From Aquipuribacter nitratireducens (GTDB lineage Bacteria; Actinomycetota; Actinomycetes; Actinomycetales; JBBAYJ01), in the NCBI RefSeq assembly GCF_037860835.1, contig NZ_JBBEOG010000005.1:186001-250000 (forward strand): a stretch of DNA of 64,000 nt, read 5' to 3'. Position 1 is the first letter of the stretch, and every line of letters starts with the position of its first letter. The notes below the pieces were generated by a model, which worked only from the letters and a program-made list of their open reading frames with translations, had not been told where the DNA came from and did not search any database. Of the stretch, positions 31,034-33,960 are shown in pieces. Made by a program: the position numbers and the translations under genes.

Positions 31034-31780
31034 CTAGCCCCGGCTCCCCGAGCGCTGCCTGCCGGAGCCCCGGCCCGCCGCCGGCTTCTCGAAGAGGTGA
31101 TCGAGCGCCTCCTGCTCCAGATCCTGCCAGCGCCGGGCGTGCGAGCGTGCCTCCTCGATCTCGTCGTCGTCGAGGTGGTGGGCGCCCTCCTCCCGGATCC
31201 GGGCGACGCTGAGCGGTCCGCCGACGCTGGGCGAGGTGAGGGACAGCGCGTCGAGGACCCGCACCAGCGCGACGACGCCGTACTCGACCGACCGCTCCGT
31301 CATCCGGAAGTGCGACAGGAGCGCCCCGGCCTGCTGGGCCATCGGGGCCCCGGAGCCGATGGCGTGGAAGCCGACGTCGTCGTAGCGGCCGATGAGGCCG
31401 TTCGGGTTGATCTCGACGATCCACCGCTGGCCCTGGCTCACCCCCGCCGCGAGGACGTAGGCGCTGACGCCGCCTCCGTCGCCCTCGCCGGGCACGTCGG
31501 CGATGTAGTTGTCGTAGTGCTTGCGCATGATCGGGAGCACGCGCTCCTGGATCTCGTCACCGATGTCGGGGGACTCGAGGATCGCGGCGGCCGCGTCGGA
31601 CAGGACCGGCTTGAGGTCGTTGAGCACACCGCGCGCGCCGCTGCCGCCCCACGCGGCGCACTCGCCCAGCTCGTGGAGCTTCTGCGCGGGGAACGACATG
31701 CCGCGGCTGCTCTCGGTGATCTGCGAGTCGGCGCCGATGACGACGCCGTCCTTGCAGATGACGGCGAGGACGACGGTCAC
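31034..31780 (-). CDS. Proteasome-like Ntn hydrolase without propeptide
   Basis: A 248-residue homologue of 20S proteasome beta-type subunits. The protein starts (fM)TVVLAVICKDGVVIGADS, so removal of the initiator Met would expose Thr1. Counting from that Thr, Asp17 (in 'GADSQ') and Lys33 (in 'FPAQKLHEL') fall exactly at the proteasome catalytic positions. 'ARGVLNDLKP' and 'GSGAPMAQQAGALL' resemble core strands. There is no PrcA or PrcB partner, no Pup or Mpa gene and no HslU-like ATPase here. It may form its own ring, like HslV or Anbu-type enzymes. The last 40 residues are charged. GTG 31780 is fixed by the Thr1 requirement. Confidence 0.82.
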   Translation of the reverse strand: MTVVLAVICKDGVVIGADSQITESSRGMSFPAQKLHELGECAAWGGSGARGVLNDLKPVLSDAAAAILESPDIGDEIQERVLPIMRKHYDNYIADVPGEGDGGGVSAYVLAAGVSQGQRWIVEINPNGLIGRYDDVGFHAIGSGAPMAQQAGALLSHFRMTERSVEYGVVALVRVLDALSLTSPSVGGPLSVARIREEGAHHLDDDEIEEARSHARRWQDLEQEALDHLFEKPAAGRGSGRQRSGSRG

Positions 31781-31836
31781 GGTGGCCTCCGGTCGGCGAC
31801 TGCGCCGGGGGTCCGGCGGCGTCGCTGGGGTACCCG

Positions 31837-31899: not shown

Positions 31900-33804
31900 C
31901 TAGGGGGTGTACCGGAGGATGTAGAGGCCGAGGTCGCGGTCGGACAGGGCGACGTACTCGGTGCCGTCCTGCTCGAAGACCTCGACGCCCCAGAAGTTGT
32001 TGCCGCCCTCGTCGATGAACTGACCGACCTCGCTGATCCCGCCGGGGCCGACCTCGACGACCCGCAGGCCGCCCGCGTAGTACGACAGGTAGGCGAGGCT
32101 CGCGTCCTGCTGGGAGACGGCGACCTCGTGGACGGACAGGTCCCCGAAGCCGTCGGCGAGCTCGGCGGTGCGCGCCTCGGGGATGGCGTAGGAGTCGATC
32201 TCCGTCATCGTGTCGGCGTCGAGCAGCCGCACGAAGCCCCAGCCGTCGAAGTACTGCGAGAACGTCAGCGTGTCCCCCAGCTGGCCGAGGACCATCGGCG
32301 ACAGCTGGGTGCCGTCGCCGGCCCGGCAGGCGGCGTCGTCGTACTGCGCCTCGAGCCCGAAGATCGCGTAGCCCTGCTGGCGCGGTGCGACCCCGAACGT
32401 CGGGATGTCGCCCTCGACGGACATGCCGAGCGTCGTGTTGCAGCCGTCGAGCGCGGTCCGGTTGAAGATGAGGACGGCGTCGTAGCCGCCGGCCTGGATG
32501 ACGTTCGCCACCTTCACGGTGAAGTCGCAGAGGCCCCGCTCGACGACGGCGACGTACGGCCCGCCGGTCGACGGCGCCGCGGCCGTCTCCGCTGGGGTGC
32601 ACGCGCGGCCGGCGAACACGGCCTGCCCCGTCACGGTCTCCTCGCCCTCGAGCTGCCGGGTGTCGCTCCCGGGCGACGCGGTGATCTCCGTGCCGTCCGT
32701 GACGTTCGTCGCGTCGAGCGCGAACGGCGAGAAGTCCTCGTCCGCCGCGATGACGAACTCGTCGTCGAGCGTGAACTCGGCCTGGTGGGCGTTGCCCTCG
32801 GGCGCCACGGCCGTCGGGTCCGTCCCCGCGAGGGCGTCGGCCAGCGTCGGGTACACGGGCTGGCTGTCGACGGCGCCGAACTGGCTGTCGGCGAGCACCT
32901 CGACGTCGCGGGGGTCCGTCACGTCGAGGCGCACGTACCCGCCGTCCCAGTACGAGGCGAGCATGATCTGCCTGCCGTCGATCTCCTTGACGACCATGTC
33001 GTGGAGGAACACCTCGTCGAGACCGGCCTCGGTGGCGATGCCCTCCTCCACGAGGTCGTACTCGGCGATGAGCGCCGGCTTGCGGGGGTTCGTGATGTCG
33101 ACGATGTCGACGTCGGTGAACTCCTCGTTGTCGACCATGACGGCGTACGCCTTGGCGCCCGCGGTCCAGCCGAAGACGCTGTGCACCTGGTTGGCCGTCT
33201 TCTTCCGGTTCTTCCCCGCGATGCCGTTCGTCGTGTAGTCGCCGAAGCCGAGGGAGAGGTTGGCGGGCGCGTACGGGTCGGTGACGTCGTAGAGGTTGAT
33301 CCCGCCGAAGCCGACGCCGACCTTGCACAGCTCGTTGTTGGTGAGGAGGACGTCGCCGGTGAAGAACGGCGTGCTCATCGACAGCACCTGCGCGCCCTCG
33401 CCGGGGTAGCTGCCCTCCTTGGAGTTGATGAAGGCGACCTCGACGGGGTTCGCCACGTCCGAGATGTCGACGACGTGGGTGCCGTTGCGCCCGCAGTTGC
33501 CCGCACCGCCCCACGAGTTGAGGTAGGCGAAGTCGCCGTGCACCGCGACGTCGGCGATGCCGCCCTCCGTCACCCGGCTCATCGCCAGCGTGCTCACGAC
33601 CTCGAGGTCGTCGCTCTGCCGCGGCTCGAGGTGGCCCTCCTCGTGGCCGTGCTGCGCCTCGTGGGAGTGGGTGTCCTTCGCGTTCGTGTACGCGCCGTCG
33701 CTCACGAGGTCGAAGACGGTGTGGGCGGACGCGGCTCCGGCGCCGAGGGCGACGGCCATGACGGCCGCGGTCCCCCCGACGAGTGCTGCGCTTCTGGTTC
33801 TCAT
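31900..33804 (-). CDS. Secreted LVIVD-repeat protein with inserted PA domain
   Basis: A 634-residue exported protein. Residues 1-28 form a signal peptide ending 'GAASA'. The mature N-terminus is His-rich ('DTHSHEAQHGHEEGH'). The body is a beta-propeller of LVIVD-type repeats ('THVVDISDVANPVEVAFINS', 'INLYDVTDPYAP', 'VDIVDITNPRKPALIAEYDL', 'VRLDVTDPRDVEVLA'). Interrupting it, about residues 385-485, is a protease-associated (PA) domain with 'YVAVVERGLCDFTVKVANVI' and 'GYDAVLIFNR'. No catalytic motif is visible; ligand or partner unknown. ATG 33804 is chosen over ATG 33807 because AGGAG lies five bases upstream of it. Confidence 0.85.
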   Translation of the reverse strand: MRTRSAALVGGTAAVMAVALGAGAASAHTVFDLVSDGAYTNAKDTHSHEAQHGHEEGHLEPRQSDDLEVVSTLAMSRVTEGGIADVAVHGDFAYLNSWGGAGNCGRNGTHVVDISDVANPVEVAFINSKEGSYPGEGAQVLSMSTPFFTGDVLLTNNELCKVGVGFGGINLYDVTDPYAPANLSLGFGDYTTNGIAGKNRKKTANQVHSVFGWTAGAKAYAVMVDNEEFTDVDIVDITNPRKPALIAEYDLVEEGIATEAGLDEVFLHDMVVKEIDGRQIMLASYWDGGYVRLDVTDPRDVEVLADSQFGAVDSQPVYPTLADALAGTDPTAVAPEGNAHQAEFTLDDEFVIAADEDFSPFALDATNVTDGTEITASPGSDTRQLEGEETVTGQAVFAGRACTPAETAAAPSTGGPYVAVVERGLCDFTVKVANVIQAGGYDAVLIFNRTALDGCNTTLGMSVEGDIPTFGVAPRQQGYAIFGLEAQYDDAACRAGDGTQLSPMVLGQLGDTLTFSQYFDGWGFVRLLDADTMTEIDSYAIPEARTAELADGFGDLSVHEVAVSQQDASLAYLSYYAGGLRVVEVGPGGISEVGQFIDEGGNNFWGVEVFEQDGTEYVALSDRDLGLYILRYTP

Positions 33805-33960
33805 CATCGCTCCTGTCGCTGGGCCCGCGGTGCGCGGGTGGGCTGGACCGAGACGGAACCCCCTCGTCACCGGTAGTGCGGATCGCACTCCTCCAGGGGC
33901 TGCACGTCAAGGGCCTGACCCGGGTCGGCGGACACGACGGGCCTTTGCTGTGATGGGGGG

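Follow-up and report, generated by a model that had tools for sequence, protein, structure and literature searches.

The gene described here lies on the reverse strand of a 64,000-nucleotide stretch of DNA from Aquipuribacter nitratireducens (“the window”) and encodes a proteasome-like N-terminal threonine hydrolase. It comprises 248 codons from a GTG start codon (31037..31780), followed by a TAG stop codon at 31034-31036. A GGAGG ribosome-binding-like site (31786..31790, reverse strand) precedes the GTG by 5 nt. With the GTG read as Met, the 248-aa protein begins with Met-Thr. If this Thr, encoded by codon 2 (31775..31777), is numbered as residue 1 of the mature protein, i.e., as the nucleophile, then Asp17 (31727..31729), Lys33 (31679..31681), and Gly47 fall exactly in place, all on the same strand. 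The preliminary description had put Thr1, Asp17, and Lys33 at the canonical catalytic positions of proteasome beta subunits, and alignment to five PrcB and three HslV sequences confirmed this. The G+C content of the gene is 71.5%, versus 74.9% for the window. Between the window gene and its homolog in a genus mate, pN is 0.094 and pS is 0.329 (pN/pS about 0.28), indicating that the gene is under purifying selection.

Relatives were collected by a scan of genome contigs, from which the best 80 of 122 loci were kept. The window protein, these 80 loci, and 12 loci from genome searches gave an alignment of 93 rows, reduced to 91 distinct members by dropping two identical ones. Thr1, Asp17, and Lys33 are each present in 91/91 members. 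A 17-residue tail in the window protein (232-248) is uncommon, with 86 of the 91 members ending by position 231. Thr is the second residue in all of the best 80 of 122 loci, and the 91 members start with either ATG-Thr (77/91) or GTG-Thr (14/91). At 48 of the 80 loci, there is no in-frame ATG, GTG, or TTG between the preceding stop codon and the Met-Thr start; the remaining 32 do have an upstream in-frame start codon, so for them the Met-Thr start follows from conservation alone. A purine-rich ribosome-site tetramer precedes the start in 71/91 family genes; on the basis of control windows placed farther upstream, 13.0 would be expected. Because the Met-Thr start is kept across the family and is accompanied by ribosome sites, the missing propeptide is a family trait rather than an artefact of a single start call. 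The GGAGG site and the conservation thus bear out the earlier claim that the window protein has no propeptide, and a start at GTG 31780 is well supported over the N-terminus further upstream that had been named as a way to overturn it.

Nine nucleotides downstream of the hydrolase gene, on the same strand, is a gene encoding a luciferase-like (LLM) oxidoreductase (PF00296; 30002..31024), and the two may be cotranscribed. The LLM oxidoreductase gene adjoins the hydrolase gene in the window genome and in one of two genus mates. In the other genus mate (G002), the LLM orthologue has no hydrolase gene beside it, so that the oxidoreductase is a genus-level neighbor only, and we rejected a functional link between the two. 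At this G002 locus (L142), a different ORF sits in the place of the hydrolase gene beside the orthologue, reflecting gain or loss within the genus. The product of the upstream neighbor (31900-33888, reverse strand) combines LVIVD and PA domains. Pfam upholds both neighbors named in the preliminary description, the downstream oxidoreductase, putatively F420-dependent, and the upstream LVIVD protein, putatively secreted as read from its sequence. The LVIVD/PA protein has a 45% paralog at G000:C4:170475-172418 in the window genome and no match at 1e-60 in the two genus mates. A Pfam scan of six neighboring ORFs, one of which had no match, found no proteasome part, consistent with the earlier statement that PrcA, Pup, and Mpa are not neighbors. 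Likewise, none of these six was recognized as an Anbu-type operon gene.

We surveyed the neighborhoods of the 80 loci with a simple ORF caller and flanks of up to 6 kb, several loci being shorter. A conserved operon was rejected: with the gene itself and overlapping ORFs set aside, no neighbor cluster among the 45 listed occurs at more than 12 of the 80 loci. The clusters found at 10-12 loci are all mycobacterial, and three broader clusters, at 7-8 loci, resemble in sequence kinase, ABC-transporter, and quinone-oxidoreductase genes of a generic type. A link to defence was also rejected, since PADLOC gave no match at E 0.1.

The window genome encodes an ordinary proteasome on another contig, which carries PrcB and PrcA. 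A 16-kb stretch at that locus includes genes for the proteasome ATPase (833 bits), Dop (695 bits), PrcB (347 bits), and PafA (751 bits), as well as a Pup-like ORF ending in ...EEFVRGFVQKGGQ. The suggestion that this lineage may also have the PrcAB system is thus correct, and the presence of a Pup-proteasome locus elsewhere in the genome indicates that the window gene encodes a separate enzyme, not PrcB. The same holds more widely: all eight further member genomes encode another Thr1 protease, with PrcB and PrcA in five and HslV in three (named from their sequences). The three alphaproteobacterial member genomes examined have HslV, with PrcA and PrcB absent at E 0.001.

Profile scores point in the same direction. 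The window protein matches PF00227 with 32.9 bits, above the curated cut-off of 22.4, although that cut-off misses some members, detecting the family gene in only four of eight member genomes searched. The PrcB equivalog model TIGR03690, with a cut-off of 191.9 bits, gives the window protein 17.3 bits and the true PrcB of the genome 347.1 bits; an HMM search, proposed earlier as a check, therefore places the protein outside PrcB. The window gene also lacks the propeptide and the prcA and pup neighbors of a PrcB gene. The HslV models TIGR03692 (13.8 bits, cut-off 157.75) and NF003964 (16.1 bits, cut-off 137) also score low, and HslV and archaeal beta models together give 13.8-23.6 bits, all far under cut-off. 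The family profile is nearer PrcB (E 2.2e-13) than HslV (E 8.1e-4), as judged with small profiles of five PrcB and three HslV sequences. Sequence searches of solved structures found no close relative, with best scores of 22.9 bits for the single protein and 31.5 bits for the profile. When 396 genomes were scored with profile A2, there was an empty gap from the remote homologs (230 bits) down to the window genome's own PrcB (55.9 bits); the 12 core genomes (at least 343 bits) and five remote ones are themselves rows of this profile, and their own high scores arise by construction.

An AlphaFold2 model built from an 18-row alignment (pLDDT 86.0, pTM 0.82, with residues 99-102 below 50) is a beta sandwich with helices H1-H4, a strand at 199-202 (S12), and a long C-terminal helix, H5, at residues 205-230 (31091..31168, reverse strand). 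The predicted H5 has a conserved amphipathic pattern, with Trp218 in 90/91 members, and by analogy with Anbu could act as a coiled coil. Foldseek ranked many 20S subunits together, the best being mouse 20S chain H (E 1.6e-12). VIA-align gave Z 24.2 for Mycobacterium tuberculosis PrcB (rmsd 3.4, 211 residues), Z 22.3 for Yersinia bercovieri Anbu (rmsd 3.5, 216 residues), and Z 21.6 for Pseudomonas aeruginosa Anbu (223 residues). HslV and BPH were not among the best 50 structural matches listed, which does not in itself point to a different fold.

Phylogenetic analysis separates the family from its better-known relatives. A tree was built from 38 rows: 13 core, five remote, seven PrcB, six PrcA, six HslV, and one other, with no Anbu, BPH, or archaeal beta sequences. 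Its core rows form one clade with support of 99/100, apart from PrcB, PrcA, and HslV. The possibility that the gene is an ordinary PrcB, for which a tree had been proposed as the check, is thus not borne out. Support for the PrcB clade is only 86/88, HslV forms its own clade, and long branches meet in this tree. AU tests rejected neither a grouping of the core with PrcB (p 0.145) nor one with HslV (p 0.176). Together, the core clade and the PrcB model score support the central claim of the preliminary description, that of a separate proteasome-like Ntn hydrolase. In a 91-row quick tree (SH-aLRT support only), the window protein and its genus mate group with the 16 Micromonosporaceae (99), and a branch with support of 100 separates the 37 alphaproteobacteria from the remaining rows.

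In mature numbering, Thr1, Asp17, Gln19, Lys33, Trp43, Gly45, Ser46, Gly47, Arg49, and Gly141-Ser142-Gly143 are invariant in 91/91 members, with Ser142 aligning to Ser129 of the proteasome. From Thr1 to residue 52, the alignment is gap-free against four of five PrcB; insertions occur near residue 9 in the fifth, the L106 PrcB, and near residue 39 in HslV. The predicted S1 pocket includes Arg49 (31631..31633, reverse strand; numbered via the PrcB alignment), which is Ala in five of five aligned PrcB. Ala also occupies position 49 in the eukaryotic S1 pockets quoted by PMC5666114. Other columns of the predicted pocket are Ile20 (89/91), Ala31 (89/91), Gly45 (91/91), and Leu52 (90/91). For Cytophaga hutchinsonii Anbu-2, the same paper lists I20-A29-R46-R50-T53 and suggests an acidic cleavage specificity (Fuchs et al. 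2017, PMC5666114). By this analogy, Arg49 would confer a preference for an acidic or otherwise anionic P1 residue, a prediction that draws on one residue and on Anbu-2, whose own specificity was proposed ahead of any demonstrated cleavage.

The second catalytic triad differs from that of the proteasome. The column corresponding to Asp166 holds Ser (86/91), Ala (3/91), or Gln (2/91), versus Asp in the five aligned PrcB, and the 169 column holds Val in 91/91, versus Thr169 in the aligned PrcB; in the window protein, Ser182 and Val185 align to these predicted positions. According to Huber et al. 2016 (PMC4792962), Asp166 together with Ser129 protonates the Thr1 amine, an archaeal proteasome with D166A undergoes no autolysis and is not catalytic, and D166N reduces activity in yeast. 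Judging by these columns, changes at Asp166 and Ser169 could weaken or alter catalysis, and a propeptide-free family might tolerate the loss of Asp166. However, three HslV rows have Cys in the 166 column, and most HslV is reported to have a propeptide (PMC8665760), making a tie between the Asp166 change and the missing propeptide doubtful. Hence, loss of activity does not follow from the change, and the absence of a propeptide is not enough to account for it.

The family is sparsely distributed. The best 80 of 122 loci comprise 37 from alphaproteobacteria, 19 from Mycobacterium/Mycolicibacterium, 16 from Micromonosporaceae, and eight from other actinobacteria (grouped by hand from record titles), with no archaeal or PVC member among them. 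Among relatives of the window organism, the gene occurs in two of 59 genomes, including the window genome itself, and in one of 36 genera; the third genome of that genus, G002, lacks it. In a sample of the phylum, 18/396 genomes match, with 12 close members and six weak matches, of which L022 reads as a true PrcB and L017-L021 as remote Met-Thr homologs. In the window's own class, 13/296 genomes match (six strongly, seven weakly at ≤27.2 bits), and in the class to which the alphaproteobacterium G448 belongs, 5/190 match, i.e., G448 itself and four weak cases (≤20.4 bits). L017-L021 are 22-28% identical to the window protein and keep Thr1, Asp17, Lys33, and Gly47 but not Arg49; they likely belong to other classes of lone homologs. 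Separately, one more Met-Thr proteasome-like protein (L140), encoded by a 1.4-Mb genome in the alphaproteobacterial sample, has a very long branch in the tree.

The window protein shares 80-82% identity with three Micromonospora members, while the PrcB and PrcA proteins of the window genome are 64.0% and 57.5% identical to those of one of these Micromonospora genomes (L023). These values, and the fact that none of the 35 other genera sampled gave a match, argue for horizontal transfer, in either direction, and suggest an exchange between the window genus and a Micromonospora-like lineage. The corresponding pS values (0.43-0.45 for the family gene, 0.51 for PrcB, and 0.56 for PrcA) count against transfer but decide nothing, because, in DNA this rich in G+C, comparisons of PrcB and PrcA with those of other genera give values down to 0.31 and 0.34.

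We rejected a phage or plasmid origin for the gene, as there was no plasmid or phage match at 1e-5 (50,697 phage records). Searching the phage records with the remote homolog L021 likewise gave no match, a search with HslV found 13 HslV-like records, and the sole match in PHROGs was an HslV-type family (29.6 bits). Two viral contigs (L103:5001-5561 and L104:2636-3196) encode near-identical 187-aa proteasome-like proteins. The L103 copy, the only one compared, keeps Thr1 and Asp17 and has Lys one position later. It scores best against the hydrolase family (40.8 bits), followed by HslV (30.4), PrcB (29.3), and the remote homologs (28.1), having been fetched by its likeness to the hydrolase family.

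Lone proteasome relatives have already been described in print. Fuchs, Alva, and Lupas (2021) defined 22 classes of lone proteasome homologs, which are propeptide-free and for which genomic context is uninformative (PMC8665760). One of these, the Widespread Proteasome Homolog (WPH), is near proteasome beta, has a predicted coiled-coil H5, and includes Actinobacteria, Proteobacteria, archaea, and PVC among its hosts (PMC8665760). The hydrolase family is probably the WPH class, a match made by description rather than against WPH sequences. The shared features are a lone, propeptide-free protein close to proteasome beta, a predicted C-terminal coiled-coil helix, and occurrence in Actinobacteria and Proteobacteria; the difference lies in the archaeal and PVC members, absent from the best 80 of 122 loci here. 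The window protein has S12 and a coiled-coil-like H5 in the model and lies nearer proteasome beta than group I, where group I is represented by HslV alone and the AU test is undecided on deeper grouping. The label thus draws on S12/H5, on nearness to PrcB in profiles of five PrcB and three HslV sequences, and on the presumed owner of one accession: the WPH representative WP_040339656.1 is presumably a Candidatus Blastococcus massiliensis protein. The genome of this organism encodes a family member (L095) and otherwise only PrcA and PrcB (PF00227 search, E 0.001). Among the papers listed in searches for later work, none characterizes WPH; one 2026 review, in the passage found, only cites Fuchs et al. 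2021. With such a class described and uncharacterized, the window gene adds a member to a kind already known.

Comparison with other proteasome relatives refines the earlier proposal that the enzyme may be HslV- or Anbu-like. The HslV part found no support, given scores far under cut-off and a separate HslV clade: HslV and BPH share with the window protein a lone beta-type subunit, and the GSG motif region is HslV-like, but HslV is shorter and lacks H5. The Anbu part stands in general form only. Like Anbu, the window protein has no propeptide, a Thr1 presumably exposed by Met removal, a long H5 helix (in the model), and no known ATPase; unlike Anbu, it has no recognized Anbu-type operon genes among its six neighbors, and the model aligns to Anbu at 14-18% identity, with Anbu behind PrcB in Z and the trees built without Anbu. 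Actinobacterial PrcB shares the fold, Thr1, Asp17, Lys33, Gly47, and the Ser129 equivalent (in structure alignment, the mycobacterial and rhodococcal proteins are 17-19% identical to the window protein), but differs in having a propeptide, an adjacent PrcA gene, a shorter H5, Ala in place of Arg49, and Asp166 and Thr169 in place of Ser/Ala/Gln and Val.

We consider it likely that the gene encodes a cytosolic, stand-alone N-terminal threonine hydrolase that is separate from the 20S proteasome, activated by Met removal, independent of ATP, and probably a WPH. This reading builds on what was observed: the fold family, the catalytic residues, the lack of a propeptide, occurrence alongside PrcAB or HslV, a clade of its own, and sparse presence. 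The protein would be made as Met-Thr, with methionine aminopeptidase exposing Thr1, much as Met removal exposes an epoxomicin-reactive Thr1 in Anbu (PMC5666114), and autolysis of a propeptide would not be needed. Thr1, with Lys33, Asp17, and a Gly47 oxyanion hole, would then attack an amide bond. The enzyme most likely forms a homo-oligomer via its beta-type helices and long C-terminal helix, and would work without a dedicated ATPase, as none is conserved nearby.

Several alternatives merit consideration. The profile comparison, the mycobacterial PrcB rows at the top of the VIA-align results, and the core-plus-PrcB grouping retained by the AU test would all fit a diverged second PrcB, i.e., an alternative beta subunit joining PrcA in the 20S proteasome. 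We find this highly improbable, given the separate clade, the missing propeptide, the low PrcB model score, and the occurrence of the family in alphaproteobacteria that have HslV and no detected PrcA or PrcB. A further alternative concerns the label alone. AAH, the alphaproteobacterial and actinobacterial proteasome homolog, is a compact class on the HslV/BPH side that is also found in phages. Its name covers the range seen among the best 80 of 122 loci, and the hydrolase family is the best-scoring group for the L103 viral protein, whose length leaves no room for H5, with the caveat on how this protein was fetched. Assignment to AAH is nonetheless unlikely, since group I lacks S12/H5 (PMC8665760) and the window model has both, the profile is nearer PrcB than HslV, and the 50,697 phage records gave no match at 1e-5 even though AAH is said to be common in phage genomes.

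The chemistry could also differ from that of a general peptidase. A specific transpeptidase/protein ligase or a small-molecule amidase would accord with the sparse presence, the lack of shared context, and the altered second triad. It would also accord with earlier reports of no activity on standard substrates for the lone relatives Anbu and BPH; the same literature describes an open ring for Anbu (PMC5666114, PMC5777263, PMC8665760). We regard this as improbable: the model has no helix between the strands of residues 20-48, i.e., no connectase-type helical insertion, and it includes H1 and H2 (50-69 and 73-90), which are missing in connectase. An inactive relict would suit the patchy presence (12/396 genomes of the phylum sample) and is scarcely credible alongside catalytic residues invariant in 91/91 members and a pN/pS of about 0.28 between genus mates. 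A more novel, tentative, and rather unlikely proposal is a distinct threonine hydrolase in which the second triad, Ser129-Asp166-Ser169, has been rebuilt as Ser-Ser-Val and Arg49 gives Glu/Asp-type or C-terminal-carboxylate specificity. Such an enzyme might be a dedicated prokaryotic acidic-site peptidase/transpeptidase, exchanged between actinobacteria and alphaproteobacteria and acting beside the Pup-proteasome or HslUV.

The family offers small, propeptide-free targets for study and makes two residue-level predictions, regarding Arg49 and the missing Asp166. Member organisms also have a proteasome or HslV, which provides an internal control. More broadly, lone proteasome homologs may reveal the roles that proteasome subunits had before ATP-driven degradation.
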